Virus record (IMG/VR): IMGVR_UViG_3300024180_000407
Location: 1 to 60,827 of that record
Length of the DNA stretch: 60,827 nt
Source: a virus
Strand: one strand, 5' to 3'
Below the pieces are notes generated by a model. It was not told the origin of the DNA. It saw only the letters and a program-made list of their open reading frames with translations, and did not search any database. Below, one piece after another: positions 6 to 51,412 of this stretch. The position numbers and the translations under genes are program-made. Numbering within the stretch: position 1 is the stretch's first letter; every line of letters begins with the position of its first letter.

Positions 6-743
6 TTACCCATTTTTAATAATTTTAAATGTCTTAACAAACCTACCGTTAGTTACTTGTAATAAATAGATACCAGTAGCAAGGTCCCTAACATCTACTC
101 TAAAAGAAACATACCCCGAGAAAAACTTCTTACTATACACACCGTGTTTTTTACCTAAAAAATCAGATACTATAACCTTATATTCTCCATTTTCGGGTAC
201 TGTTAACTCTAGTGTTATACGCCCGGTAGTAGGTACTGGGTATGCTATTCCGTATATGCCGTCTATAGGTGGTACTTCAAAGGGCATTGATCTTTTATTT
301 ACATACCCATCTGTACTTATAACCTCTATATCCCAACCTAACTCAGTTCCTGCGGTTTTTCTTCCAATGGTAATAGGTATCTCTACCCATGATTGATCAA
401 TTACTTTAAACCTAACTGTGAATAGTTCTGTGGGTGAGTTTATTGTATAAGTACCAAATGAAGCATCATATCCTCCCCATCTAACTGTTTCACCTTGCCA
501 GTCCATAGTGTAGGTTAACCATTGTTGAGCTTTAGCTGTTACCGATATATCTTCAAAGGCTAAGTATGTGGGGTCATAATTTAGTGCAAATTCTAAACTA
601 CCTACATCGTTGCTATTAGTTTCGATTACAACCGGTAAATTAATATAAGTACTAACAGGTACCTCAATCTCAGGTACGTTAAATTTGACCTGAGAGTGAG
701 CTACTGTTGATAGTGTTAGTAAAAATATTAATAACGATTTCAT
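6..743 (-). CDS. Secreted cohesin-like protein with T9SS C-terminal sorting domain
   Basis: A 245-residue protein with a classic signal peptide (MKSLLIFLLTLSTVAHSQ). Residues about 20-150 look like a cohesin-type beta sandwich, with a VGSLEFALNYDPTYLAFEDI stretch typical of cohesin strands. Residues about 168-245 match a type A T9SS C-terminal domain: it opens with YPVPTTGRITL, has an LGKK turn, and ends GIYLLQVTNGRFVKTFKIIK. In Bacteroidota this domain directs proteins through the type IX system to the cell surface. It follows the 362-aa gene by 3 nt, so the two are co-translated. I infer that the infected host exports it to its surface. Fold assignment is by eye; the sorting domain is the safer call. 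Confidence 0.8.
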   Translation of the reverse strand: MKSLLIFLLTLSTVAHSQVKFNVPEIEVPVSTYINLPVVIETNSNDVGSLEFALNYDPTYLAFEDISVTAKAQQWLTYTMDWQGETVRWGGYDASFGTYTINSPTELFTVRFKVIDQSWVEIPITIGRKTAGTELGWDIEVISTDGYVNKRSMPFEVPPIDGIYGIAYPVPTTGRITLELTVPENGEYKVIVSDFLGKKHGVYSKKFFSGYVSFRVDVRDLATGIYLLQVTNGRFVKTFKIIKNG

Positions 744-746
744 TTA

Positions 747-1835
747 TTAATTTAATCCTGTACCATTTGCATCACCTAATACTAGTAAGTAGAAATTACC
801 TGCTGTAGTTCCATTTATCTGTGGTGATAAGAATTCTTCTTGTCCTGAGATTGTCCCAGATTGATCTGAGGTAGCAGCATCAATAGTGTTGTATTGAGCT
901 TCAGTAAAGAATAGTACATCTGGGTTATTTGTATAAGCACTTAAACCTTGAGCTAATCTAGCAAATAACAGATAAGAATCTGATACCGTAATACCATTTG
1001 CTTGGTTTGTATTACCGGTATAGTACTGTATACCTGATGTTGTTTGTACTCCTGCTGCTATTTGAGCAATCATATTTGCATCTGCTGCTGATAATGCTGT
1101 ACTTGCATCTAAACCACTTGCAATTTTTAATCTAACTTGCCAGTAATCTTGATCTATATTCTCTGAGAATGTTGCTGTTCCATCGGCTTCTGTTGTATCT
1201 GTAGCTACATCTACCCAAGTACTACCATCTGCTGATTTCTGTAAAATTACAGGAATTAATTCTGCTGGGTTTGTTGCATTATTTAAAATAGTTGCTACAT
1301 AATCAAATGCTGGTTCTATAAAGTTACCACCGTTATCTGATGTGCCTAGAATAGCATCTGTACCATCAGTTTGTGCATAATAAGCAGTTAAATTGTTTGT
1401 GAAGTCAATCCCATCAACTGTACCATTAGTATAACTAGATTTAAATGGTAATTCAACATCAAACATATTACCAGCAATAAGGTCAAAGGTAGTAGTAGCA
1501 CCATCATAGGCCCATACGACTTTTACAATACCGTTTGTTGCATCCACATCTGTAGACATATACCCTACAGGTCCTGAAGTGTTGTTGTAAGTTACAGTTG
1601 GTGTGTCAAAAACATCTTTATCGTAACTGAAAGAGAATTGAATACCTTTTACTGTGTTACCTGATGTGTTATCGTAGTAAATATCAACTATAGTATTATT
1701 TGAGGAATTAACCGACTCTAAATTATAAGTAGAATCAAGAATTATATACGGCTTAGTTGCATCGGGTGATGTAGTTTGTCCATATGTAAATACTGTGATT
1801 AGTAATGCGGTTATGAGGGTAATTGTTTTTTTCAT
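747..1835 (-). CDS. Secreted cohesin-like and dockerin-like protein
   Basis: A 362-residue protein with signal peptide MKKTITLITALLITVFTYGQ. Residues about 30-170 resemble a cohesin-like sandwich (VKGIQFSFSYDKDVF). Residues about 240-290 hold two helix-loop segments, LSAADANMIAQIAAG and ITVSDSYLLFARLAQG, arranged like a dockerin pair. The C-terminal tail (FFTEAQYNTI, then NFYLLVLGDAN) has the same layout as the tail of the upstream 356-aa protein. No T9SS sorting domain is visible. It is probably co-expressed with the 245-aa protein, and a TATTTATA element lies 27 nt upstream of the start. Partners are unknown; a cohesin-dockerin contact between these neighbours is inference. Confidence 0.7.
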   Translation of the reverse strand: MKKTITLITALLITVFTYGQTTSPDATKPYIILDSTYNLESVNSSNNTIVDIYYDNTSGNTVKGIQFSFSYDKDVFDTPTVTYNNTSGPVGYMSTDVDATNGIVKVVWAYDGATTTFDLIAGNMFDVELPFKSSYTNGTVDGIDFTNNLTAYYAQTDGTDAILGTSDNGGNFIEPAFDYVATILNNATNPAELIPVILQKSADGSTWVDVATDTTEADGTATFSENIDQDYWQVRLKIASGLDASTALSAADANMIAQIAAGVQTTSGIQYYTGNTNQANGITVSDSYLLFARLAQGLSAYTNNPDVLFFTEAQYNTIDAATSDQSGTISGQEEFLSPQINGTTAGNFYLLVLGDANGTGLN

Positions 1836-1862
1836 TGTAATTTTATTTTAACATTAATTTAT

Positions 1863-1870
1863 TATAAATA
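1863..1870 (-). promoter_or_regulatory. TATTTATA element (putative late promoter) before the 362-aa secreted gene
   Basis: Coding-strand octamer TATTTATA, 27 nt before the start codon. It is one of at least eleven copies found at similar distances before genes here. The sequence is the reverse complement of the T4 late promoter core TATAAATA, so it may be this phage's late promoter in altered form. Function is inferred from position only. Confidence 0.4.
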
Positions 1871-1873
1871 TAA

Positions 1874-2944
1874 CTAATTCCTGTGTCCGGTTCTTATTAA
1901 ATAGAATATAGTAGAGTCTCCATTACTTCTATCAAATAAACTATAACTTCCATATCCAAAATTTTCAGATTTATCATCAGTATCAGTATCTAAAGGGTCC
2001 CAAAAGTAAGGAGTTTGTTGATAATGAAATACTTTTGTAGAAGGTGTAGTACTACTATACTGAGTAAATATACCATTCATGTAAGCTAACATAGAATATA
2101 AATCTGCAACACTAAATTTCCCGTCATTATTAACATCCATTCTCCAATAATCTTTGGAATTATAAACCCCACTAATTAATTTACTAGTAAAGTAACTGAT
2201 ATCATTTAGAGTTGGAATTGATAATGTAGGAGGCACTACATCTATAGTGTAATCGTAATCATCATAATTTAAATTAGTTGAAAAACTATAAGCTCCATTT
2301 GTATCTGTTACAGCTTCTGAGTGTAGATTGTAACTAAATCCAACCTGATTTTTGTTTTGTGTTTTAAGTTGAACTGTGATTCCTTCTAAAGGTTCTTCTT
2401 CAGCGCCGTAAACGTACCCACTATGATTTATTGGATCAACAGCTCCTGTAATTGTAGTTTTGAAGTCAACTGTATTTCCATATGAGTAATTACCACATAA
2501 GTTGGGAGAAGAAGAATATACCATCATAAACCTCATATAAACTTCTCCATTGAAAACTGTTTGCGGAACGGTAAATGTTTTATTGAAATTTCTAGTTCCA
2601 TTCCACGTACTATTACTAGAGTGAACTAGTTCTCCTGAATCGTTTAAATTTCCATTTCCATTATAATCAATCCATAATTTAAAGTACTGTCGGTAATTAC
2701 CTCGGGTTTGAGCTTGAAAATTAAGAGTAATTACATCTCCGGCATTTATTGTAGGAACTAAGGTATTTGTATGGTCTATATATCCTGGTCCAGTCCAACC
2801 TGTATTTACAATGTAATTTTGTCCATTTATATTTATCGAATTTAAACGTTCATACCCAAAAGCTTGTGCAGATGAAGGACATAGTGGTGATTGTGCTTTT
2901 ACTATACTACTGAGTAGTATTAATATAAAGGTTAGTTTCTTCAT
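1874..2944 (-). CDS. Secreted GEVED / carboxypeptidase-regulatory-like / dockerin-like protein
   Basis: A 356-residue protein with signal peptide MKKLTFILILLSSIVKAQ. Residues about 40-165 match the GEVED domain of Bacteroidota surface proteins: LWIDYNGNGNLNDSGELV, then TFTVPQTVFNGEVYMRFMM, then CGNYSYGNTVDF. Residues about 172-240 look like a carboxypeptidase-regulatory-like sandwich (GYVYGAEEEPLEGITVQL). Residues about 245-290 are dockerin-like, with a calcium-loop motif DVNNDGKFSVADLYSML. No C-terminal sorting domain is seen. The gene begins 16 nt after a strong terminator, so its own promoter is unclear; a TATTTATA octamer abuts the start codon but is too close to serve as an ordinary promoter. 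Confidence 0.75.
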   Translation of the reverse strand: MKKLTFILILLSSIVKAQSPLCPSSAQAFGYERLNSININGQNYIVNTGWTGPGYIDHTNTLVPTINAGDVITLNFQAQTRGNYRQYFKLWIDYNGNGNLNDSGELVHSSNSTWNGTRNFNKTFTVPQTVFNGEVYMRFMMVYSSSPNLCGNYSYGNTVDFKTTITGAVDPINHSGYVYGAEEEPLEGITVQLKTQNKNQVGFSYNLHSEAVTDTNGAYSFSTNLNYDDYDYTIDVVPPTLSIPTLNDISYFTSKLISGVYNSKDYWRMDVNNDGKFSVADLYSMLAYMNGIFTQYSSTTPSTKVFHYQQTPYFWDPLDTDTDDKSENFGYGSYSLFDRSNGDSTIFYLIRTGHRN

Positions 2945-2960
2945 ATAAATAATTGTTCAC

Positions 2961-2982
2961 AAAAAAGAGGGCTAATGCCCTC
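2961..2982 (-). terminator. Rho-independent terminator after the holin-like gene
   Basis: On the minus strand a perfect 6-bp stem GAGGGC/GCCCTC with a 4-nt loop is followed at once by six T. It sits between the holin-like gene and the secreted cassette, so it can insulate the secreted genes. Confidence 0.85.
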
Positions 2983-3007
2983 CTCTAGAAGTTATACTAG
3001 TTTTAAG

Positions 3008-3265
3008 TTACTTCGCTCTATTACCGAATACTTTACCGACTTCAGCAATTCCAAAAGCACCTAATACTATCCATACGAATGAATCGTATATAAATTCATT
3101 AATTACTAGATCTTTACCGAAGTAGCCTGAGACTAAATCAGCTACTGCAAAAATTACCATTATTGCAAATGCTAAAAATCCAACTACGGATTTTTCGTTG
3201 ATATCGTTGTTGTCTTTAAAAATGTTTCTAAATGCCATCCATTTATTCTTTAAGTGTTTAAACAT
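3008..3265 (-). CDS. Small two-helix membrane protein, holin-like
   Basis: An 85-residue protein with a basic N-terminus (MFKHLKNKWMAFRNIFK) and two hydrophobic helices, about residues 28-48 and 58-76, separated by a short polar turn. A basic tail ends it. Size and topology fit a class II holin, but no lysis partner adjoins it, so lysis is only the best guess. A TATTTATA element lies 30 nt upstream and terminators lie on both sides, making it a single-gene transcription unit. That fits a protein needing its own late timing. Confidence 0.55.
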   Translation of the reverse strand: MFKHLKNKWMAFRNIFKDNNDINEKSVVGFLAFAIMVIFAVADLVSGYFGKDLVINEFIYDSFVWIVLGAFGIAEVGKVFGNRAK

Positions 3266-5734: not shown

Positions 5735-6034
5735 TTACTTGTTCTCTGCTACAGAAGCTTTTCTATAGTCGGTGATTAATTTCTTAATTTCACCTGCTGC
5801 TTTTCTAGCTCTCTGTTGAGATGCTTTTGTAGTACCTGCATTATTTTCTGCTAACTCATTAAAGTTTGCTTCAATTGCTTCGAATAATTCTTGTTTTTTA
5901 CTCATAATAGTTTTCTTTTTAATTTTAGTTTTTGGGTAGGTCATTTCTGTACTAATCAACGTATTACCCTTATACGTCCATTTATCTTTTAATCCATACT
6001 CATTAGTATATTCTCTAACTATAATGTCATTCAT
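5735..6034 (-). CDS. Histone H1/Hc1-like DNA-binding protein, with N-terminal extension
   Basis: The C-terminal 56 residues, from an internal Met at codon 44, start MSKKQELFEAIEANFNELAE. They include QQRARKAAGEIKKLITDYRK and end in KASVAENK. This is the usual length and pattern of Bacteroidota Hc1-type histone-like proteins, which bind DNA. The 43 residues before it (MNDIIVREYTNEYGLKDKW onward) are in frame but not part of that family. The codon-44 ATG (position 5905) has an A-rich leader and may be the true start. The ORF start overlaps the groEL stop. Confidence 0.75.
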   Translation of the reverse strand: MNDIIVREYTNEYGLKDKWTYKGNTLISTEMTYPKTKIKKKTIMSKKQELFEAIEANFNELAENNAGTTKASQQRARKAAGEIKKLITDYRKASVAENK

Positions 6035-7671
6035 TACATCATCATTGATGGATCAATACCCTGTGCTGGGTCTTGTTTTTTATCCTTTTTATTACTAATC
6101 ACTGCTTCAGTTATTAACATCGTTCCTGCAACTGATGCTGCATTTTCTAATGCTAACCTAGTAACTTTAGTTGGATCAATAATACCGGAAGCAAACATAT
6201 TTACATACTGTTCTTCTCTAGGATTATACCCTGACCAGGCATCTCCTCCTTCTTTAATATGTTCTTCTATACCTCCTATATCGCTGTCTGTATATCCTGC
6301 ATTTAATAGTATTTTATAGAAAGGTCTTTCGATTGCTGAGATTACAATTTCGTAACCTAGATGATACTCTTCTGGTTGGGCGCCAATTTGGTCAGCAAGC
6401 ATCATAGCAGAGTTCAAGAGAGCGATACCTCCACCTGGTAGAATTCCTTCTTCCAAGGCTGCTTTAGTAGCGTGGAGTGCATCATCTACTCTATCTTTCT
6501 TCTCTTTCATTTCTATTTCTGTCAATCCACCAACGTGTACAATAGATACACCGCCGATAAACTTAGCTAACCTCTCTTGTAAAGTTTCAATTTCAAAATT
6601 AGAATTACTATTATCAATTAAACTCTTAATATCCTCTACTCTATCAGTTATTGCAGCTTCTTCTCCTTGTGCATCGATAATTGTTGTAGTATCTTTACTA
6701 ACTGTTACCTTGTTAGCTTTCCCTAACCAGTCAGTATTAAACTTATCAAGTTTCATTCCTTTTTCATGAGATACTACTGTTCCTCCAGTTAGTATTGCAA
6801 TATCTTCTAATATTGCTTTTCTTCTGTCTCCAAAATCAGGTGCTTGAACTGCTACAACTCCTAAGATACCTCTCATCTTATTTACTACTAAGGTAGAAAG
6901 TGCCTCTCCTCCTATTTCATCTGCTATAATTAACAGCTGTTTATTTTGAGATGAACATGCTTCTAAGATAGGAAGAAGTTCTTTTATGTTATTAATCTTC
7001 TTATCTGTAAGAAGTATAAACGGATCTTGAAGAACAGCTTGCATTGAGCTATTATCTGTGACGAAGTAAGGAGACTTGTAACCTCTGCTGAATTGAATAC
7101 CTTCAACAGTTTCTAAATATGTTTCTCCTGTTCGCGACTCTTCGATTGTTACTACCCCATCACGGCCAACTTTGTCCATGGCAGTGGAAATTAACTCACC
7201 TATTTCGGTGTCATTGTTAGCTGAGATAGTAGCTACTTGCTTTAGCTGTTCTTCATCCGTTATGTCTTTTGAATACTCTTTTAGATATTGTACAACTTCT
7301 TTTGTTGCTTCATCAATACCTCTTTTTATGTCTACTGCGTTTTGACCTTTCTTAAGTTTGTCTATACCTTCTGAAAGCATAGATTGTGCGAGAAGTGTAG
7401 ATGTAGTTGTTCCGTCTCCTGCTTGCTCTGCTGTCTTAATAGAAGCTTGTTTAACAATTTGTGCTCCTAAATTTTGCACCTTATTTGATAGTTCGATTGA
7501 CTTAGCTACTGTTACTCCGTCTTTAGTTGATATAGGATTCCCCATATCTTGTTCTATAATAACGTTTCTTCCGGAAGGTCCTAATGTAGCTGTTACAGCA
7601 TTTGCTAATTTATCTACTCCTTTTGCTAGCTTCCCTCTTGCTTCGTCTGAAAATATAACTTTTTTACTCAT
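6034..7671 (-). CDS. groL: Chaperonin GroEL
   Basis: A 545-residue, full-length group I chaperonin. Residues 31-37 (GPSGRNV), 51-57 (DGVTVAK) and 85-90 (GDGTTT) form the ATP site. Later come DFGDRRKAILEDIAILTGG and ILPGGGIALL. The C-terminus has the flexible Met-rich tail (DPSMMM). It forms the folding cage with the GroES encoded 8 bp into its start. T4 carries only a GroES substitute (gp31), so a complete phage GroEL/GroES pair is notable. It probably folds abundant or large phage proteins. Key residues look intact. Confidence 0.97.
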   Translation of the reverse strand: MSKKVIFSDEARGKLAKGVDKLANAVTATLGPSGRNVIIEQDMGNPISTKDGVTVAKSIELSNKVQNLGAQIVKQASIKTAEQAGDGTTTSTLLAQSMLSEGIDKLKKGQNAVDIKRGIDEATKEVVQYLKEYSKDITDEEQLKQVATISANNDTEIGELISTAMDKVGRDGVVTIEESRTGETYLETVEGIQFSRGYKSPYFVTDNSSMQAVLQDPFILLTDKKINNIKELLPILEACSSQNKQLLIIADEIGGEALSTLVVNKMRGILGVVAVQAPDFGDRRKAILEDIAILTGGTVVSHEKGMKLDKFNTDWLGKANKVTVSKDTTTIIDAQGEEAAITDRVEDIKSLIDNSNSNFEIETLQERLAKFIGGVSIVHVGGLTEIEMKEKKDRVDDALHATKAALEEGILPGGGIALLNSAMMLADQIGAQPEEYHLGYEIVISAIERPFYKILLNAGYTDSDIGGIEEHIKEGGDAWSGYNPREEQYVNMFASGIIDPTKVTRLALENAASVAGTMLITEAVISNKKDKKQDPAQGIDPSMMM

Positions 7672-7972
7672 TGTTTGATTCTTTAATTATTGCTAAAATT
7701 TCTTTGTCTGGTGTTATGAAGTATTCCTCTCCATCAAAATCTACTCTTAAAGATCCAATTTTTGGAATAAGTACAGTATCTCCTACTTTTGCATTTACTC
7801 TAATAAACTGACCAAATTCAGATTGACGACCTGGTCCTACTGAGATTACTTCTCCCATTTCCGGTTTGTTCTTACCCATATCAGGTACAACTATATTACC
7901 GTACATTTGTTCATCTTCTTCTATAGGTTTTATAATAACTCTATCATTGAAGGGTATTAATTCTTTTGCCAT
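7664..7972 (-). CDS. groS: Co-chaperonin GroES
   Basis: A 102-residue protein with the GroES beta-barrel pattern: FNDRVIIKPIEEDEQ, a mobile-loop region around QMYGNIVVPDMGK, then GEVISVGPGRQSE and GDTVLIPKIGS. The mobile loop is acidic compared with host GroES. The last 8 bp overlap groEL, so the two are translationally coupled. It is transcribed from the host-type promoter at 8001-8028. Confidence 0.95.
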   Translation of the reverse strand: MAKELIPFNDRVIIKPIEEDEQMYGNIVVPDMGKNKPEMGEVISVGPGRQSEFGQFIRVNAKVGDTVLIPKIGSLRVDFDGEEYFITPDKEILAIIKESNNE

Positions 7973-40306: not shown

Positions 40307-42061
40307 TTATTGTACAAATGTTGCTCCAGTTGGCTCAATTGTAAAGTCTAGTACTATAAATTCTGCTGTTTTTGCTGGCTGAATAAATACTTGACCTATT
40401 AATTGATTTCTATCTACTACATCTGCTGTGTTATTTGATTCATCCATTACTACTCTGTAAGCATAAAGACCTTGTCTCTGTACCACTGATTCTAAGTAAG
40501 GATTAACGTTTGCTAAGAATTTATTTCTTGTTGCAATCGTATTTTGTTCAAATACTAAGTTTGTTGCTTGATCTCCTAAGAACTTCTTAAGAGCTATTAA
40601 TAATCTTCTAACATTTACTCTGTCTAATGCTGAAGCTTTTGTCTGTAAAGTTTTTTGTCCAAATACTGCTATACCTTGTCCAGGGAAAGTAGCGATTGGA
40701 TTTACTTTTGCAGCATATAATATATCTCTCTGATTTCTGCTTAGTTTTTGTTCTGCTTGTATTACTCCTGTTATACCACCTCTTACTAAACCTGCTGGGG
40801 CAAACCAAGGTGCTGCTGCGCTATCATTAAAAGCATAAACTCCAGGTACTGTACAAGAAGCTGGTGCCCATTGCAATCCTGCTCCTCCGCTTAACTGTAC
40901 CCATGGCCAGTATGCTGCTGAATATGAACTGTTTACTTTTTTAGCTTGAGTTACTAAATTTGCTGTAGTTGAGCCGTGATTAGCTAAATCTACTATCGCT
41001 ATACAATCACTTCTAAATTGTGCTGCTGACATAAGTGAATCTAACACTGTAGCATGAGTTGCATTTTGATATAGTAAACCGGGTGCTGATAATACGTTAA
41101 TTACGTATTCGTCTCTATTTTGTAATACGTTTATCGCAGTTTCGTAATCTGCTGCTACTAATCCCTGTGTATCAGTATTGGATATTGCTTCGTTAAATGT
41201 CATAGCTGCTTTAACGATGTTTCCAGCACCGTTATAAAACGATCCTGATGTTTCTAGTGGTAAAGATGCTGAATATGAAGTTGTTCCTTTCGAGTTAACT
41301 GTGAAGCCATCTGCTGCTAAATAATTGATAGTTGCTCCTGCTACTGCAGAAACATAAACATATCTAGATTTATTTACATAGTTACCAGAAGATTGTACGT
41401 ATTTCTGTGTACCATCTGTAACAACAGTTGTTACTTGATTTCCAATTCTTTTTTCAATGTAGTTATCACTATTAGGATCTAATGATACATTATTATACTG
41501 CTCTAAAATTACTTTATTAGAGTGGTTATCATTTCCTCGTCTTATCGATAAAGTAAATGTTCCAGCTTCATTATCTTTAGCTGATACTTCCCATCTTATG
41601 TTGTCAGCTGATCCAGATTTCATTGTACCGCCGCTATTAGCAATTTCTGCTCCATGATCTACAGCGCCTGTACCGTTATTATATATAACTCCTTGACCGT
41701 GCGTTTTAAGTTCAAATGGTACTTCTGCTGCTGCAGATGCAGTAACTGCTCCTGATTTTGCACTTGTCCAAGTTCCTGATGCACTAACGACTCTTGTTAC
41801 TAAAGCTGAATTACCTCCTTGTTGGAAGAAGTTTTTAATAGCTAATGATGTTAAGAACTCTTTATTAACAGATGCTGATACAAAGATATCGCCGAATATA
41901 GCTTTATATTCATTAAATGAAGTTACTATAGTTGGTTGCTCTACTGGTCCTTTTACCGTCGGTCCTATAAATGCTGAACTCGCATCGACTGGTGCTGGCG
42001 TTACAAATGAAATATCGTTTTCTCTTGTAAAAACACCTGGGGAAATAATTTTTTCTGCCAT
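40307..42061 (-). CDS. Tail sheath protein (gp18-like)
   Basis: A 584-residue contractile sheath protein. The N-terminus reads ISPGVFTRENDISFVTPAPV, the classic sheath start. A variable domain follows, then GTCERWW-type conserved C-terminal folds here seen as PIATFPGQGIAVFGQKTLQ and DRVNVRRLLIALKKFL, then TIATRNKFLANVNPYLESV. It defines the contractile tail. Two or three TATTTATA elements precede it. Confidence 0.94.
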   Translation of the reverse strand: MAEKIISPGVFTRENDISFVTPAPVDASSAFIGPTVKGPVEQPTIVTSFNEYKAIFGDIFVSASVNKEFLTSLAIKNFFQQGGNSALVTRVVSASGTWTSAKSGAVTASAAAEVPFELKTHGQGVIYNNGTGAVDHGAEIANSGGTMKSGSADNIRWEVSAKDNEAGTFTLSIRRGNDNHSNKVILEQYNNVSLDPNSDNYIEKRIGNQVTTVVTDGTQKYVQSSGNYVNKSRYVYVSAVAGATINYLAADGFTVNSKGTTSYSASLPLETSGSFYNGAGNIVKAAMTFNEAISNTDTQGLVAADYETAINVLQNRDEYVINVLSAPGLLYQNATHATVLDSLMSAAQFRSDCIAIVDLANHGSTTANLVTQAKKVNSSYSAAYWPWVQLSGGAGLQWAPASCTVPGVYAFNDSAAAPWFAPAGLVRGGITGVIQAEQKLSRNQRDILYAAKVNPIATFPGQGIAVFGQKTLQTKASALDRVNVRRLLIALKKFLGDQATNLVFEQNTIATRNKFLANVNPYLESVVQRQGLYAYRVVMDESNNTADVVDRNQLIGQVFIQPAKTAEFIVLDFTIEPTGATFVQ

Positions 42062-44716: not shown

Positions 44717-47700
44717 TTAAATATTCCATACAGCTACCATATTCCAATAGTGGTTACTGCTAGTTGCTGCCTCAATCCCAAATGCTATTGCGTTTTGATT
44801 ACCAGCTGTTCCATTCATATTAATTTGCTTATTAAACTGTATCCACGTTTGTCGGTTTGCAGTAACTGTGAAAGTTTGCGTGTCTAATAGTGATGGTAAT
44901 GCAACTACGTCTGCATCATATAACCTTAATTTATTATTACCAAGTAAGGTGGATTGAGTGGTAATACCTACCCCTACCAATGTTGCGCCTTTAGGTATTA
45001 AGAAACGTGATGTATAATTTAATGAGCTACCAAGAAAAGAAGCATAATTTGGTATATACCTTAATGATGTTGTGTTTGAAAAGAAAGCATATTGATGCTG
45101 TGTCACCATTGATGGCATTCTAGTTCTAACATTACCTCCTGCTGCTGATAAAGGTTCGTTAGATTGCCATGATGAATTATTATAGTAAGTTACTGCTGCA
45201 TTATCAGTACTATTAAAGAAGTTGTCGTAAACTATTGTATCTTCAAATAATGCTGCTACTCCGTATTGTTGTTTCTTTTGTACCCACAGCTGTATATCTG
45301 TATTCGAGTTTACTACTAATTTTAAACTATCTGCTTGATATGCTGATCCAGCACCGGTTCCTGATCTTGCTTCAAAACTATCTGCTCCACTTGCCATTTC
45401 AAGTATTCTAATATCAGCTACTTGAGGTGTAGTACCTGAACTATTAGATCTTAGTTCAACTGCAAATCTCATATACCCTGCTTGAGATATCTCTTCCATC
45501 ATCAGTGTGTATGTAGCTCTTATTTCATTAGCAGCACTTGTTATTGAAAACTTCGCTAATTTTGTCCAGTAGTTTTGTTGTCCTGCAACTGCTGAATGAT
45601 TTGAAGTAGCATCTGGTGTTCTTCTGATGCGACCGCTTATTCTACCGTTTACAGATAATTTTGATGTTTCCCCTGTACTTACATGAGCTGTATCTCCGTT
45701 AACAATAACATTTCCTGAAGTTAATGTTAGGCTTGGTGTCCCTGCGCTGAGGTTTGAACCTGCCATTTTAAACTTACCATCAGTTCCATCAATACCCATT
45801 GCAAATGTACCTGTTCCTTTTTGGAACGCTAATCTAGCATCTCCTGCTCCTTGTTGATTTATAATAATACCGCTGTTGATTGTGGAATCGTTTTGTTTAA
45901 TGTATAGTTTACCATCAACACCGTTATCTACTCCAACAGTAATTTGTTCATCTGCATACAATCTTGCTGTATCTAGATCTCCTCCGACTTCTAAGTCATT
46001 ATTAAAGACAGAATTTTGAACTACGTCTATATATCCATTAATATCTACGTTACTTTTGAAATTTGCGCTTCCGGTAACTAACAGAGTTGAAGTTATATTT
46101 GCATTTCCTGAAACATGGAAGTTGTGATTTATTGCACCAATAGTTCCTACTGCGAAATCACCATCGGTTTTAACTTGTCCAGTTGCGTCGTTTACATGTA
46201 ATCCCGATCCGCCAGGACCTCCTGCTAGTAGGTGTATTTCATCACCTTGGGTGTATATATCAGACTCTGCAGCTGTCTCTAAGCGAATTGCTCCGCTAAC
46301 ATTTAAAGCACCTGTTGCAAGATCATTAGTTGTTGTAGATCCATTATCAGTTACACTGTCTAATGTTGCTCCGGAAGGACCGATTCCTCCTATTTGGTTT
46401 AGTAATTGAGATCCAGAAACATATTTAACAACTGCTCCGTCCAGTACTAAGAATTTATCTGTATCTGTGGTAGTACCTGCTACACTACCTATATTTAACT
46501 TCCCGTCTAGTATAAGTCTATTATTAATAAATCTTACTTCTCCTGAGGAGTGTCCAGATTCAATGATCATTTGATGCTGACCTGTTGTATTTGAAGTGTA
46601 AAAAGTTAAAGATCCGGTTACTCCTGCTGATGCGCCTCCTCCTACAATTAATATAGGTTGTGTATGGTCTGTATGGTCTAGTAATAACGCTCTCTCATGT
46701 ATTTGAACTGTGCTTGCAAATGTTGTATTAGGAGAGCTTGTACCAAAGAGTGTGTAAGAACCTGTAACTACAAGCGTGTTAGCTCCAAATGAACCCATTG
46801 TAACCTTATCAGAAGAATCTACTTCTAAGATTGGAATACCAGCTACGTCACTAACAGAGAATAATGTACCTTCTAAAGAATCTGTTATTGAGAATAACTG
46901 ACCTTGGGATCCCTGTACGTCAAATAGTACACTTCCTGATCCTTCTATAGTAACTAGATCTGTTGTACCAGAAACATGCAATTTAGATGCTGGGGTATCT
47001 GTTCCTATCCCCACATTACCAACAAAGGTAGATTTACCTGTTGCTACTGTTAACTCAGTAACTGCTGAAGGCTGTAGGTATATCGGTTTGTTTTCTCCGG
47101 TATTATAATCAGACTGTATTATTAAAGCATCTGCTGCGCTTAGGTATGCTGCTGCTGCGTCATTTATAAATCTTATTTGGTCACCATTGACAACAATGTC
47201 ACTTGCAAATGCAGCTGTTCCTGCATTTGACATATCTAACGATAAAGCCGTAAAAAATGTACCGCCGTCATTACCTCTAAATATCATATCCTTGTTACTA
47301 ACTGAGGAGATAAATGTAAGGTTCTGTGAAGTCATATTAACTTTACCAATAAGCGTACCGTTATCAGTAAGTTGTATAGAATCTCCTGCTGCATCTAAAA
47401 TTATATCTCCTGCAGAGTCGATAGTAAAGTTACCCGTTGAGTTATTTATTTCACCATTTGCTCCGTTATGGAATATTTGCATATCATTGTCATCTCCTAA
47501 CTGAAGTTGAGCTGAATCGTTGTCTAGGTGTATATTTCCTGTTGTAGTAATAGAAGGTACCGATAGTAACCCTGCAGAAGAATATGTCATTCTATTAGTA
47601 GCACTACCTGCAGGTCTCCATTCTAGATTACCACCATTGTAGGATGCGATATCCCATGATACCGTACTGTCGTCTCTAAGTCTTAAATATGCCCAATTAC

Positions 47701-50700
47701 TTCCTCCATTTTCTATTTCTATTCTAGCAGATGCTGATGAATCAACTTTAAAACCTAATCCATTTGTAGATTTAATAGTTTGATTTGTACTAGAACCTCT
47801 ATCGGCAACAGTATCTAAAGTATCTGCTTCTGCAGTTAGAACTGTACCATCCGAAATAGCAGTATTTAATTGTGCTGTTGTAAATGATCCTAGCGATGTT
47901 GCATTTCCTACTGATGTAATATGTCCAGTTAAATTAGCATTTGTAGTTACTGTATCTGCTATTAATGCATGTGATGCTGAAGTAGCTGAAGTAGCTGAAG
48001 TAGCAGAAGTAGCAGTAGTAGCACTATTTGCTGTTAATGCATGTGATGCTGAAGTAGCAGAAGTAGCAGTATTAGCAGTATCAGCAGCAGTAGCTGATGC
48101 AGCAGTAGTAGCTGTATCTGCTGTTAATGCATGTGATGCTGAAGTAGCATTATCTGCAGTTCCTGTTGTATCTTGATTCCAAGTTGGAACTGTTCCTGAT
48201 ATTTCACTATAGACTGGTTTATGTCCTTCGTGGAAGATCTTATAGTCTGTTTCACTAGCACCAACTCTTACCCTGAATCCTTCTGCGTGTGGAGCGTTAA
48301 GTATTACGTGATCTGTACTGTCGTTTGAAACACCTACTATTAATTCAGCATTTTCTCCAGATGTCCCTGTACCGTAGGCATGGTATTGTATAAATCCAAA
48401 ATCAGTACTATGGTTAATGTTAGTACCATCTTTTTCTGATTCGAAGAATATACCGCTTATCCCTACAGAGTTTCCTTTTAATACAATGTTATCTGATCCT
48501 GTATGGTAGTTAGATGAGGCAACATAAGTTCCTCTAGATAAACTTCCATTAAGTGTTAATCCCCCTCCTGTAATGTTTCCTGAAGTGGTCAGATTACCGA
48601 TTATGTCTAAGCTTTTATTAAAGTCCCAGGTATTATTAGTTTCATCCCATAGTATACTAGCACTTGAACCAGATACAAATATACCTGAACCTCCTGAGTT
48701 TGCTTCTGTTTGTCCTGCTCCAAGGATAATAAGTTTATCAACTACATTTAAATTATTTACGTTATAAGTGTCTACTGTTCCTGTAATTACAAGGTTACCG
48801 GTTACTGTTAAGTCGTCAAATGTTGGAGAAGTATTCGGCTGTACTGCTGTTCCTGCTAAACTTCCTGAAGCTAGTGTTGCATACCTGCCATCTCCAAATG
48901 TTTTAGTAACTAGTGTTTGCCATGGTCCCCAACTCGTACCTCTATACCTATATGCTAACCCCTCTCCATTATTAGCACTACTGTTAGAAGTCATCTGCCA
49001 TCCGTAATTACCACTACCTTCTGTAAGTGTTAGTCCTGTAGTATGGGAAGTGCCGAAAGGTCCGTTTGTGGTTCCTTGAAATCTATAAAGACCTCTAGTT
49101 GTAATGGTATCATAATCAGCTGTTGATACTGCAAAATTAGAAAAAGCATTTGAGTTTAACCACAATGTACTTGCTGTTGCTCCAGTTCCTCCTTCAGCAA
49201 CTGCTAAAGCAGTTCCCAATGTCAGCGTTCCAGATATATCGGCATCACCGTTTATGTCTAAAGCACCAGCCGTTAAAGAGTTGCTACCAGCCGTAACGTT
49301 ACCTCCAAAAGTAACAGTTTTATCAGCTGCCCATCTCATAGTAGTGTCGTTGTAAGCGGTACCTATATACCCATAGCTAAATGTATTATTACTTCCGTAA
49401 GCTCCTATCGCATATAAAGATGTGTTATCGTGTTCTTTAAAATTCATCAATGCTCTTGCCCAACCACCACTTGAGTAGTCAGGTTTTTTAACAACAACAT
49501 TATCACCGTCTAGTATAGTAGTTGCAAAACCACCAGGTATTGTAAGTGTTCCTGATAAATTACCATTACCGTTAATGTCTAAACTTGTACCTTCTAATTC
49601 CGTACCGCTTATCTTACCGGTCGATGTTATAGCTCCTCCATCTATGGTTCCTTCAAAAATTGCATTACCACTTTGATTAACACTAGCAACTACGTTAGCA
49701 GAATTATAACTACCTGTATTAGAAAGTATTTCAAATTTACGGGTGTTGTCGTCATTATTTGCATCAATAAATAATCTTATACCTTGATTTGATTTAAGAT
49801 CAAATTGAGCGCCAGCATTATTTTGTATTATAAAATCACCAGTGCTACCGAAAATATTACCCCCTGATGATAATGTCAAATTGCCTCCTATATCAGCATT
49901 ACCGTTTATATCTAAGCTAGTACCTTCTAATTCTGTACCGCTTATCTTACCGGAAAAAGTTGCATCCCCGGTAGATTCAGCTATTGTAAGTCTAATATCA
50001 TCTCCAGCATCTCCACCTACAGTTTCTTTTATTAAAAACCCTACGCCCTCGTCTACAATAAGGTCAAACGCTAAATTATTACTGTCTGAGTCTTCTAACC
50101 TGATACCTGCTTGACCAGCGTTTTTAATCTGTAATTGTACAGCAGCGTTAACAGCATTACTTAGGGTGCTATCGCCAATCATCATCTTTCCGTCTATTCT
50201 GGCTTGTCCGTGAACCTCTAGCTTATTCGCAGAATTAACTGATGTTGTATTAACCCCGAGTGTTGAGTTAACCATTAACTCTCCTCCATTTAAGGTTAAT
50301 TTATTACTACTATGTACAAATTTAACATCGCCTGCAGCAAAATCAAGCTCACCACCAGAAGGAAGACCTATGTTGTGGCTAAATAAAGCAGAACCACCGT
50401 CTGACATATCAAGAGTAAGCGCGTTTACAGATGTTCCATCATCATTTCCATAAAACTTTATATCACCATCTGTAACATTAGAAGTTATTAAAAAATGATT
50501 TCCACTTTTTGTAAACGTACCGAAATTTGTTCCTGCTGCTTTTAATCTAATATCGTTACCAGCCGCGTCAAAAGCTATATCGCCTCCAGCATCTAATATT
50601 ATATCGTCTGGAGCTGCAATGGTCATAATTCCAGCACTACTTTCTGTAAATGTTACCGCGTTGCTACCGTCACCAGATATGGATAAAGCACCGCCCAATA

Positions 50701-51412
50701 CATTAACATCACCATCGGAGTTTATTACCATTCTATTACTTCCACTTGTCATGAAAGTTATACTTCTTGTTGCTCCTGCAAATGATATTGAGGAATAGGT
50801 ATTATTTACTTTATCCTCTATACTAGTTATCCTAGCAGCGTTTGTGTATACAACTCCATTTAGTAAGTCTACGCCTCCTGCTCTTGTGTAACCTCCTACA
50901 TTTAATAAGTAAGAACCTTGCGTAGCTCCTATATTTAATTTTTCAAATGAACCAGTTCCTGATGAAGCTATATTACCGGTTACATCTAATAGTGTTCCGT
51001 TAAAAGTAAGATTTGCTTCAGCATCTAATTCTGTTGTGGTAGACCCAACGGTTACTAATTCATTAGCAGTCGCATTATTAATTGCAGTAACTGCTCCTGA
51101 TGAAAGACCTGTCAATCCTGATGCATCTCCTACAAAAGAACCAGAAAATGAACCAGAAAGAATTCCGTTAGATATGGTAGCTGTACTACCGGATATTATT
51201 ATAGCTTCTGCTCCATGAGTACCCATTTTAATAGTGTCATCAGAAAAGACTTCAAAGATAGGAATACCGGATATATCTGATATACCGAATAACGATCCTG
51301 AAAGAGAGTCTGTTACAGAAAATAATTGTCCATGAGAACCACGGACATCTAATACTACTGAGCCTGATCCATCAACGATCAGTCCTTTTTTTACTTTAAA
51401 TTCGTTTGCCAT
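44717..51412 (-). CDS. Giant tail fibre protein (2231 aa)
   Basis: A 2231-residue, beta-rich fibre. The N-terminal module (VVLDVRGSHGQLFSVTDSLS, SGIPIFEVFSDDTIKMG) reappears near residue 1480 as VLFDVQGSQGQLFSITDSLE and AGIPILEVDSSDKVTMG, an internal duplication. Repeated DINGNADIGGNLTL, TELEGTSLDINGN and SGTLTLGTALAVAEGGTGAT units mark tandem short-repeat shafts. An Ala/Thr/Ser-rich tract sits at about 1090-1160. The C-terminal 250 residues look globular and may bind receptor or be the knob. It is the largest gene in the window. Confidence 0.88.
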   Translation of the reverse strand: MANEFKVKKGLIVDGSGSVVLDVRGSHGQLFSVTDSLSGSLFGISDISGIPIFEVFSDDTIKMGTHGAEAIIISGSTATISNGILSGSFSGSFVGDASGLTGLSSGAVTAINNATANELVTVGSTTTELDAEANLTFNGTLLDVTGNIASSGTGSFEKLNIGATQGSYLLNVGGYTRAGGVDLLNGVVYTNAARITSIEDKVNNTYSSISFAGATRSITFMTSGSNRMVINSDGDVNVLGGALSISGDGSNAVTFTESSAGIMTIAAPDDIILDAGGDIAFDAAGNDIRLKAAGTNFGTFTKSGNHFLITSNVTDGDIKFYGNDDGTSVNALTLDMSDGGSALFSHNIGLPSGGELDFAAGDVKFVHSSNKLTLNGGELMVNSTLGVNTTSVNSANKLEVHGQARIDGKMMIGDSTLSNAVNAAVQLQIKNAGQAGIRLEDSDSNNLAFDLIVDEGVGFLIKETVGGDAGDDIRLTIAESTGDATFSGKISGTELEGTSLDINGNADIGGNLTLSSGGNIFGSTGDFIIQNNAGAQFDLKSNQGIRLFIDANNDDNTRKFEILSNTGSYNSANVVASVNQSGNAIFEGTIDGGAITSTGKISGTELEGTSLDINGNGNLSGTLTIPGGFATTILDGDNVVVKKPDYSSGGWARALMNFKEHDNTSLYAIGAYGSNNTFSYGYIGTAYNDTTMRWAADKTVTFGGNVTAGSNSLTAGALDINGDADISGTLTLGTALAVAEGGTGATASTLWLNSNAFSNFAVSTADYDTITTRGLYRFQGTTNGPFGTSHTTGLTLTEGSGNYGWQMTSNSSANNGEGLAYRYRGTSWGPWQTLVTKTFGDGRYATLASGSLAGTAVQPNTSPTFDDLTVTGNLVITGTVDTYNVNNLNVVDKLIILGAGQTEANSGGSGIFVSGSSASILWDETNNTWDFNKSLDIIGNLTTSGNITGGGLTLNGSLSRGTYVASSNYHTGSDNIVLKGNSVGISGIFFESEKDGTNINHSTDFGFIQYHAYGTGTSGENAELIVGVSNDSTDHVILNAPHAEGFRVRVGASETDYKIFHEGHKPVYSEISGTVPTWNQDTTGTADNATSASHALTADTATTAASATAADTANTATSATSASHALTANSATTATSATSATSATSASHALIADTVTTNANLTGHITSVGNATSLGSFTTAQLNTAISDGTVLTAEADTLDTVADRGSSTNQTIKSTNGLGFKVDSSASARIEIENGGSNWAYLRLRDDSTVSWDIASYNGGNLEWRPAGSATNRMTYSSAGLLSVPSITTTGNIHLDNDSAQLQLGDDNDMQIFHNGANGEINNSTGNFTIDSAGDIILDAAGDSIQLTDNGTLIGKVNMTSQNLTFISSVSNKDMIFRGNDGGTFFTALSLDMSNAGTAAFASDIVVNGDQIRFINDAAAAYLSAADALIIQSDYNTGENKPIYLQPSAVTELTVATGKSTFVGNVGIGTDTPASKLHVSGTTDLVTIEGSGSVLFDVQGSQGQLFSITDSLEGTLFSVSDVAGIPILEVDSSDKVTMGSFGANTLVVTGSYTLFGTSSPNTTFASTVQIHERALLLDHTDHTQPILIVGGGASAGVTGSLTFYTSNTTGQHQMIIESGHSSGEVRFINNRLILDGKLNIGSVAGTTTDTDKFLVLDGAVVKYVSGSQLLNQIGGIGPSGATLDSVTDNGSTTTNDLATGALNVSGAIRLETAAESDIYTQGDEIHLLAGGPGGSGLHVNDATGQVKTDGDFAVGTIGAINHNFHVSGNANITSTLLVTGSANFKSNVDINGYIDVVQNSVFNNDLEVGGDLDTARLYADEQITVGVDNGVDGKLYIKQNDSTINSGIIINQQGAGDARLAFQKGTGTFAMGIDGTDGKFKMAGSNLSAGTPSLTLTSGNVIVNGDTAHVSTGETSKLSVNGRISGRIRRTPDATSNHSAVAGQQNYWTKLAKFSITSAANEIRATYTLMMEEISQAGYMRFAVELRSNSSGTTPQVADIRILEMASGADSFEARSGTGAGSAYQADSLKLVVNSNTDIQLWVQKKQQYGVAALFEDTIVYDNFFNSTDNAAVTYYNNSSWQSNEPLSAAGGNVRTRMPSMVTQHQYAFFSNTTSLRYIPNYASFLGSSLNYTSRFLIPKGATLVGVGITTQSTLLGNNKLRLYDADVVALPSLLDTQTFTVTANRQTWIQFNKQINMNGTAGNQNAIAFGIEAATSSNHYWNMVAVWNI
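47945..48155 (-). repeat. Tandem repeat encoding Ala/Thr/Ser-rich tract in the giant fibre
   Basis: Short direct repeats built on the coding sense of GCTGAAGTAGC-like units, translating as TATSATSASHAL-like residues. The tract is repetitive at DNA level and could vary in length between relatives. Confidence 0.75.

Follow-up and report, generated by a model that had tools for sequence, protein, structure and literature searches.

Introduction

The cellulosome of C. thermocellum brings together an anchor (SdbA), an adaptor (the Coh9-X-DocII part of CipA) and dockerin-bearing subunits. To our knowledge, phages alter host surfaces mainly through single proteins. In the article on Cryophage (Bellas et al. 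2020, PMC7468147), phage proteins with type A sorting domains of the type IX secretion system (T9SS) are described that are highly variable between variants, one of them with a PA14 domain, and T9SS cargo in phages is therefore already known. Here we analyse a 60,827-base virus record, IMGVR_UViG_3300024180_000407 (positions 1 to 60,827, hereafter the window), at the left end of which lie three adjoining minus-strand open reading frames (ORFs), read in the order ORF3, ORF2, ORF1 (Table 1). ORF1, which we call the anchor, joins a cohesin to a T9SS sorting domain; ORF2, the adaptor, joins a modelled cohesin to an X-dockerin-like tail; and ORF3 carries a related tail behind an exchangeable head. 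On balance we favour the view that the phage uses the three genes to build a display scaffold, resembling that of a cellulosome, on the surface of the flavobacterium it infects, delivered via the host T9SS.

The cassette is real, conserved, modular and unusual, and its reading as a scaffold is well supported by anatomy. The sequences establish the genes themselves, their domains, the homology of the tails, synteny, selection and the exchange of heads; that the proteins are exported, that their cohesins bind the dockerin-like tails, and what the scaffold is for are inferred. That a phage should encode T9SS cargo together with cohesin and dockerin-like modules had been proposed in a first-pass annotation of this DNA; the proposal is supported here and the combination is found to be conserved in relatives.

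The cassette and its relatives

Adjacency of the three genes is borne out, and the signal peptides given to them in the first-pass annotation appear by eye as signal-peptide-like leaders, in which the first 18–20 residues end in ..AHSQ, ..YGQ or ..KAQ and resemble signal peptides of Bacteroidota type; similar leaders are present in the homologue alignments of ORF1, ORF2 and ORF3. A search of PHROG gave no match for any of the three at E ≤ 0.1. Scans of viral contigs returned 10 loci by ORF1, 31 by ORF2 and 48 by the ORF1 alignment, and 50 loci collapse to 37 distinct ORF1 sequences (profiles were built from our own alignments, with 24 rows for ORF1, 26 for ORF2 and 20 for ORF3, incomplete ORF3 copies being excluded). 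ORF2 stands beside ORF1 in all 37, and a head gene with an X-dockerin-like tail stands upstream in 36, the exception (L085) being a contig that starts inside ORF2.

The same three genes in the same order are gp013–gp015 of the cultured Flavobacterium phage vB_FspM_immuto_2-6A (NC_055915.1, Immutovirus; hereafter immuto), annotated as 'lectin C-type domain-containing protein', 'hypothetical protein' and 'cohesin domain-containing protein', respectively, with 49% (ORF1) and 55% (ORF2) identity to the window. In immuto the cassette comes after ribonucleotide reductase and nuclease genes, not structural genes. Whole-gene dN/dS was 0.08–0.43 for the three genes in six pairs (dS exceeded 1 in 3 of the 18 comparisons, for which the ratios are rough). 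All three are genuine genes on which purifying selection acts.

The domains of the cassette are typical of Bacteroidota secretomes and one copy lies in a bacterial metagenome-assembled genome (MAG), which could speak for an artefact or host contamination, with bacterial genes misassembled into a viral contig. We regard this as exceedingly improbable: 37 distinct ORF1 sequences were found, and the presence of the same three genes in the complete genome of a cultured phage rules out a host or contaminant origin. The MAG contig (L044, JAAEPJ010000011.1, 89% identical) was the single match in the bacterial collection, which was scanned with two short patterns and in which bacterial relatives may be missed. 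On this contig a ribonucleotide reductase gene is followed by the three cassette genes, much as in immuto, and it is therefore read as a mis-binned phage contig.

Anchor and adaptor

The type A T9SS C-terminal domain (CTD) expected in one of the proteins is that of ORF1, where TIGR04183 scores 42.4 bits against a curated cut-off of 23 (E 5.1e-11) and Pfam Por_Secre_tail (PF18962) 36 bits against 27 (E 8.5e-9). Pfam Cohesin (PF00963) scores 34.9 bits against a cut-off of 24.1 (E 2.1e-8) in the same protein. ORF1 is thus predicted T9SS type A cargo by its sorting domain and a cohesin protein by the Pfam cut-off, and both domains were matched in 24 of 24 ORF1 homologues (E ≤ 0.1).

For ORF2 the cohesin assignment rests mainly on a structure model. 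The window copy gave no credible family match by itself in Pfam and TIGR profile searches, and the ORF2 profile retrieved nothing from the PDB at E ≤ 1; Pfam Cohesin was matched in 7 of 26 ORF2 homologues at E ≤ 0.1 (best 7.4e-5). Direct profile comparison of the ORF1 and ORF2 cohesins was weak (prob 5.9). The AlphaFold model, built from 25 sequences (the immuto row, L002, was excluded from both alignments given to AlphaFold), has a mean predicted local distance difference test score (pLDDT) of 58.9 and a predicted template modelling score of 0.49; its N-terminal domain is confident (pLDDT about 80 over residues 21–170), the X module has block pLDDT values of 52–73, and the C-terminus is poor. 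When the model was compared with the PDB by Foldseek, all of the best 50 rows listed were cohesin-bearing chains, the first being the 308-residue scaffoldin chain 4fl4_C (aligned over 234 columns), which we take to be a CipA cohesin-X-dockerin fragment. VIA-align placed ORF2 residues 24–177 onto cohesins with Z-scores of up to 14.4, this highest value being to 6kgc_A with a root-mean-square deviation of 2.8 over 140 residues. The modelled N-terminal domain of ORF2 has a cohesin fold, and the two cohesin-like sandwiches claimed earlier are both recovered, one by a Pfam score over cut-off and the other by modelled fold.

The shared tail and the proposed scaffold

The tails of ORF2 and ORF3 are related, ORF2 residues 192–357 being homologous to ORF3 residues 173–356 (hhalign prob 97.8, E 1.2e-12). 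The X module of ORF3 drew matches to CarboxypepD_reg, SdrD_B and SpaA, all below cut-off, and the AlphaFold model of the ORF3 tail (39 sequences, both tail kinds) contains a confident sandwich; the dockerin part that follows is poor, its helices spanning fragment residues 77–88 and 110–120 and its calcium loop residues 101–112. The canonical F-hand calcium loop follows the pattern DxNxDGxxxxxD. The ORF3 loop, DVNNDGKFSVAD, has the F-hand calcium loop of a dockerin and is the sole match to a loose form of the pattern among the window's six-frame stretches of at least 60 aa (mean 0.04 in 300 residue shuffles). This loose pattern occurs in 36 of 37 head proteins of relatives and in 0 of 37 ORF2 copies; the ORF2 loop is degenerate. 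In a six-frame search of eight records, the best Dockerin_1 place was the head gene in six of the seven records with a match, one of the eight (that of L044, neighbouring stretches counted) exceeding the cut-off. We make the dockerin assignment because of the loop, the sub-threshold Pfam matches and these six-frame placements.

Searches for cohesin and X-dockerin modules covered eight virus records between 37,550 and 167,696 bases long, one of them the immuto genome (160,410 bases). At E ≤ 0.1 cohesin was matched in ORF1 (8/8) and ORF2 (4/8) and nowhere else, the X-dockerin profile matched at two places per record, ORF2 and ORF3, in all eight, and neither partner module was found on any other phage protein in these records. 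The sorting domain occurred once in each of the seven phage records searched and seven times in a bacterial MAG in the same search, and 1 of 14 named control genomes matched. The cohesins and X-dockerin-like tails that these searches found, two of each, thus form a closed set with the single surface tag in three genes.

In the scaffold that we favour, all three proteins would reach the periplasm through their signal peptides, and the host T9SS would export ORF1 and fix it to the outer surface, cohesin outside, as an anchor scaffoldin. ORF2, with its cohesin and X-dockerin, would serve as adaptor by docking into ORF1 and might in addition form chains of its own, and the X-dockerin of ORF3 would dock into a cohesin and present a sugar-binding head, of GEVED type here and of EPN-type C-type lectin, PA14-like or laminin-G type at the scaffold tips of relatives. 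ORF2 and ORF3, which are untagged, would travel bound to ORF1 or by another route. A more specific form, in which a T9SS-anchored, calcium-locked cohesin-dockerin appendage, possibly a chain of ORF2, stands on the living infected cell with an exchangeable lectin tip, is put forward tentatively and has in our view somewhat less than an even chance of being right.

Several observations weigh against this scaffold. ORF2 and ORF3 have no CTD that would take them out of the periplasm. The window copy of ORF3 scores 15.3 bits against a Dockerin_1 cut-off of 22.9 and does not display the two tandem repeats of a dockerin, the first repeat being by eye without ligands; Dockerin_1 matches just three of the 20 head proteins at E ≤ 0.1, with 0.0045 as the best value, and at the same lax limit it also matches 9 of 14 control genomes. 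The dockerin part has pLDDT below 50 nearly throughout in both the ORF2 and ORF3-tail models, and comparison of the X-dockerin model with the PDB by Foldseek gave no match at E ≤ 0.001 and no dockerin among the 50 rows listed. VIA aligned just the cohesin part of 4fl4 (model residues 25–174), and the X-dockerin half of that match is therefore not confirmed. Finally, in one contig (L039:7951 = L102:4998-5729) ORF1 is interrupted by an in-frame stop that follows residue 136 and lies ahead of the CTD. Of the two dockerin-like loops in the first-pass annotation, that of ORF3 holds and that of ORF2 does not; the dockerin fold of the tails is not confirmed, and their membership in the dockerin family is partly borne out. 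The display of interacting proteins, also suggested there, fits the anatomy: the three genes hold two of each module, cohesin and X-dockerin-like tail, and no other copy was found in the eight phage records searched. As a separate observation, the copy with the stop would secrete a cohesin without a sorting domain, and the stop is either a natural variant or a sequencing error.

What Foldseek did return for the X-dockerin model were weak generic sandwiches, the first row being the neck protein of phage XM1 (E 3.8e-3) and lower rows including a cyanophage neck fibre and a lambda-type tail-tip chain. Such rows bring to mind an accessory receptor-binding device, with the three proteins attaching to virions during assembly or after lysis. 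The variability of the sugar-binding heads does recall that of phage adhesin loci, and some phage receptor-binding proteins have a C-type lectin fold. We nevertheless judge decoration of virions to be unlikely, since the neck and tail rows are weak matches that stand among numerous unrelated sandwiches, the signal-peptide-like leaders and T9SS tag would direct the proteins out of the cytoplasm, where virions assemble, and the eight phage records hold no further cohesin or X-dockerin match. Attachment through immuto gp079, the protein with the best Dockerin_1 match in that genome, was rejected because the match is a lone EF-hand-like motif. This 841-aa protein (L062:6007-8529) is encoded near the terminase gene, and its motif is probably unrelated. 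The cassette lies outside the tail module, as had been noted, with the tail sheath gene far away at 40307-42061; given this distance and the ribonucleotide reductase and nuclease genes that precede it in immuto, an effect on the cell would fit better than a part of the virion. Among the uses suggested in the first-pass annotation, cell coating or adhesion are likeliest, and virion decoration is less supported.

Exchange of the head

Sequence comparison identifies the head as the module that is exchanged while the scaffold stays constant. Among 37 head genes, 13 encode C-type lectin heads, 12 PA14-like, 5 GEVED, 3 an untyped kind, 2 PA14 and 1 a lectin plus laminin-G, and one is too short to type. 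The label 'PA14a' for the 12 PA14-like heads is our own, phmmer giving cross-matches with the PA14 head of L034 in 5 of 12 distinct heads; Pfam PA14 matched 3 of 20 head proteins and one of eight records, the PA14a-headed records G004 and G005 being without a match. The label 'oth035' denotes an untyped head. In the window, the GEVED domain scores 52.7 bits against a cut-off of 24.4 for PF20009 (E 7.8e-14). Lectin_C (PF00059) was found in 8 of 20 head proteins (best 2.6e-17), and EPN and WND motifs are present in every one of the 13 distinct lectin heads; the profile match and the sugar-ligand motifs together identify C-type lectins. EPN and WND motifs are marks of calcium-dependent mannose-type sugar binding. 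In the ORF3 profile search of the PDB, the matches among the best 60 of 81 rows are C-type lectins such as the PLA2 receptor, mannose receptors, DC-SIGN, langerin and Mincle. Scanning the 20 head proteins for enzyme domains gave none except one MetallophosN match at 0.09.

On a tree of ORF1 and ORF2 built from 36 of the 37 distinct ORF1 records (the truncated L085 was excluded; another tree used 24 rows), at least nine head changes are needed, a count made without a shuffle control in which the two-head record and the lectin plus laminin-G record each formed a state of their own and the untyped head of L093 was not counted. GEVED heads occur on both main branches. Exchange is also seen between close relatives: L086 and L088 are 99.2% (ORF1) and 95.9% (ORF2) identical with an untyped and a GEVED head, respectively (the L088 head gene lacks its 5' end because the sequence is cut there, and its type is taken from 50 residues and 91.7% nucleotide identity to L083), and L081 and L082 are 96.3% and 95.0% identical with an untyped and a lectin head. 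The DNA of L086 aligns with that of L083 as far as the opening codons of the head gene (87%) and again from its last codons on (91%), with no alignment between. At L084:1546-3822, two head genes stand in tandem, an untyped one of 422 aa and a C-type lectin of 334 aa, both with an X-dockerin-like tail.

The most likely purpose of the scaffold is to alter what the infected cell surface binds, be it host glycans, blocking rival phages, or particles and neighbouring cells, and viruses with the cassette may thus be altering the outside of the cells they infect. For the first of these, the head would bind the host surface glycan that serves the phage as receptor, coat the infected cell and exclude other phages, and head exchange would follow glycan types. 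The lectin-type heads with sugar-ligand motifs in relatives, the exchange of heads between near-identical phages and the position of the immuto genes after ribonucleotide reductase and nuclease genes are in keeping with such masking. However, Lectin_C is confined to the head gene (4/8 records), as is PA14 (1/8; GEVED was not searched genome-wide), and a tail protein of the same fold was not seen in the Lectin_C and PA14 searches of the eight records. We consider receptor masking possible but doubtful as the purpose of the scaffold.

Alternatively, the heads may make infected cells sticky to algal polysaccharide, particles or neighbours, which would place progeny near new hosts or feed the host during a slow infection. 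The carbohydrate-binding head types and an anchor-adaptor-tip anatomy like that of cellulosome anchoring point in this direction, as does the T9SS-tagged endoglucanase, GH39 and PA14 cargo of Cryophage (PMC7468147). Against it, the cassette shows no enzyme or known polysaccharide specificity, and a lytic phage would gain little unless its latent period were long. Adhesion is accordingly a purpose that we regard as conceivable but rather improbable taken by itself.

Genomic surroundings

A hairpin with a U-run, the probable terminator of the preceding gene (3008-3265), lies between that gene and ORF3. It ends about 16 nt before the ORF3 start, which leaves little room for a separate promoter, so that read-through expression is possible. 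The earlier statement that the cassette lies behind its own terminator finds support in the hairpin itself and none in a consensus promoter and terminator scan, which did not list it and performed no better than shuffles.

Downstream of the cassette, in the same direction, follow a small transmembrane-type gene and then genes of about 235, 385–524 and about 146 aa (leaders by eye). The latter three are present in 33, 33 and 31 of 37 loci, the missing ones falling at contig ends, and in some loci other genes intervene between the cassette and these envelope-type genes. Together with the presence of both partner types in the single chain of ORF2, this arrangement is compatible with a secreted polymer, in which a head-to-tail ORF2 filament would be exported with the downstream envelope genes, with ORF3 at the tip of the filament and ORF1 at the base. 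The 235-aa protein looks vaguely CsgG-like by eye, and a single copy among 18 matches CsgG weakly (0.01), but CsgG (PF03783) was found in 0 of 8 records, no PDB match was obtained by profile, and hhalign to E. coli CsgG gave prob 1.9, with no support against CsgE or CsgF either. The CsgG/curli reading of this gene was rejected, and an ORF2 polymer of this kind seems to us improbable.

The downstream envelope-type genes are exemplified at L004:10731-13466 (+), where the second of the three larger proteins has about 450 aa, and the 235-aa protein is 57–63% conserved between clades, better than ORF1 or ORF2. Elsewhere in the window, a GroEL/GroES-like pair at 6034-7671 and 7664-7972 (−) has 72% nucleotide identity over window positions 6428-7945 to the annotated chaperonins of immuto, and a 2231-aa ORF without a PHROG match at 1e-5 lies near the tail genes at 44717-51412 (−).

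Table 1. Positions in the window of the cassette genes, their assigned or predicted modules and the upstream hairpin
Feature	Position	Strand	Content or basis
ORF1, anchor protein	6..743	−	245 aa; signal-peptide-like leader, cohesin, T9SS type A sorting domain
ORF1 T9SS type A sorting domain (residues 168–244)	12..242	−	TIGR04183, Por_Secre_tail
ORF1 cohesin (residues 19–119 by Pfam)	387..689	−	PF00963
ORF2, adaptor	747..1835	−	362 aa; signal-peptide-like leader, cohesin, X-like module, dockerin-like tail
ORF2 dockerin-like tail (residues about 243–300)	936..1109	−	Degenerate duplicated F-hand pattern, by eye
ORF2 prealbumin-like X module (residues about 178–238)	1122..1304	−	Model strands 195–238; homologous to ORF3 from residue 173
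ORF2 cohesin (residues 24–177)	1305..1766	−	AlphaFold, Foldseek, VIA
ORF3, head protein	1874..2944	−	356 aa; signal-peptide-like leader, GEVED head, X-like module, dockerin-like tail
ORF3 dockerin-type calcium loop DVNNDGKFSVAD (residues 270–281)	2102..2137	−	Sequence pattern
ORF3 prealbumin-like X module (residues 170–240)	2225..2437	−	Confident beta strands in model
ORF3 GEVED domain (residues 87–162), inside swappable head (residues about 19–166)	2459..2686	−	PF20009
Hairpin with U-run upstream of ORF3, probable terminator of preceding gene	2961..2985	−	Fold z −3.05

Comparison with known systems

We found no report of a phage cohesin-dockerin scaffold in the open-access literature, nor any describing the cassette of immuto. 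The view that display of interacting proteins through the host T9SS would be unusual for a phage holds for the scaffold, whereas for T9SS cargo as such Cryophage is a precedent. Like the cassette, Cryophage encodes T9SS type A cargo that is variable between phage variants, according to the available part of PMC7468147. There, however, the variable proteins themselves bear the sorting domains and neither cohesin nor dockerin is mentioned, whereas here the CTD protein is constant and the variable head sits on a separate protein with an X-dockerin-like tail. Immuto differs from the window in having a C-type lectin instead of a GEVED head, and its annotation omits the sorting domain and the dockerin-like tails; as a cultured phage of Flavobacterium sp. 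LMO8, it offers testable handles. The heads of relatives share Lectin_C, EPN and WND with the C-type lectin domains of the PLA2 receptor, DC-SIGN, langerin and Mincle. They differ in that the window head is GEVED, in being set in a prealbumin-like fold, and in that their sugar binding is predicted.

If the scaffold reading is correct, it would show viruses employing the outside of the cell as a platform while infection is under way, with a conserved anchor and adaptor and exchangeable sugar-binding tips, and phage target specificity would be changed by swapping a subunit that plugs into a conserved scaffold displayed away from the virion.

The closest parallel in anatomy is provided by the cellulosome scaffoldins. 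The phage set is unlike them in being viral, in its T9SS CTD anchor, in having one cohesin per protein and in that no enzymes are seen; dockerin-bearing polysaccharide-degrading enzymes were not found in the eight records, where the X-dockerin profile matched just ORF2 and ORF3. Its dockerin-like tail, moreover, consists of one canonical and one degenerate repeat and is not confirmed by fold. With no enzymes seen and dockerin membership partly borne out, we do not class the cassette as a cellulosome despite its scaffold-like anatomy. The likeness nevertheless extends to each of the three proteins: as in the scaffoldins, an anchor combines a cohesin with a surface tag, an adaptor combines a cohesin with an X-dockerin, and a carbohydrate-binding subunit carries a dockerin, and it is the C. 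thermocellum scaffoldin complex 4fl4 that supplies the first Foldseek match listed for ORF2. Should the reading hold, the three genes would constitute a viral 'cellulosome' that governs binding by the infected cell, and at the same time a minimal cohesin-dockerin set, made by nature, that comes with a secretion tag of its own.

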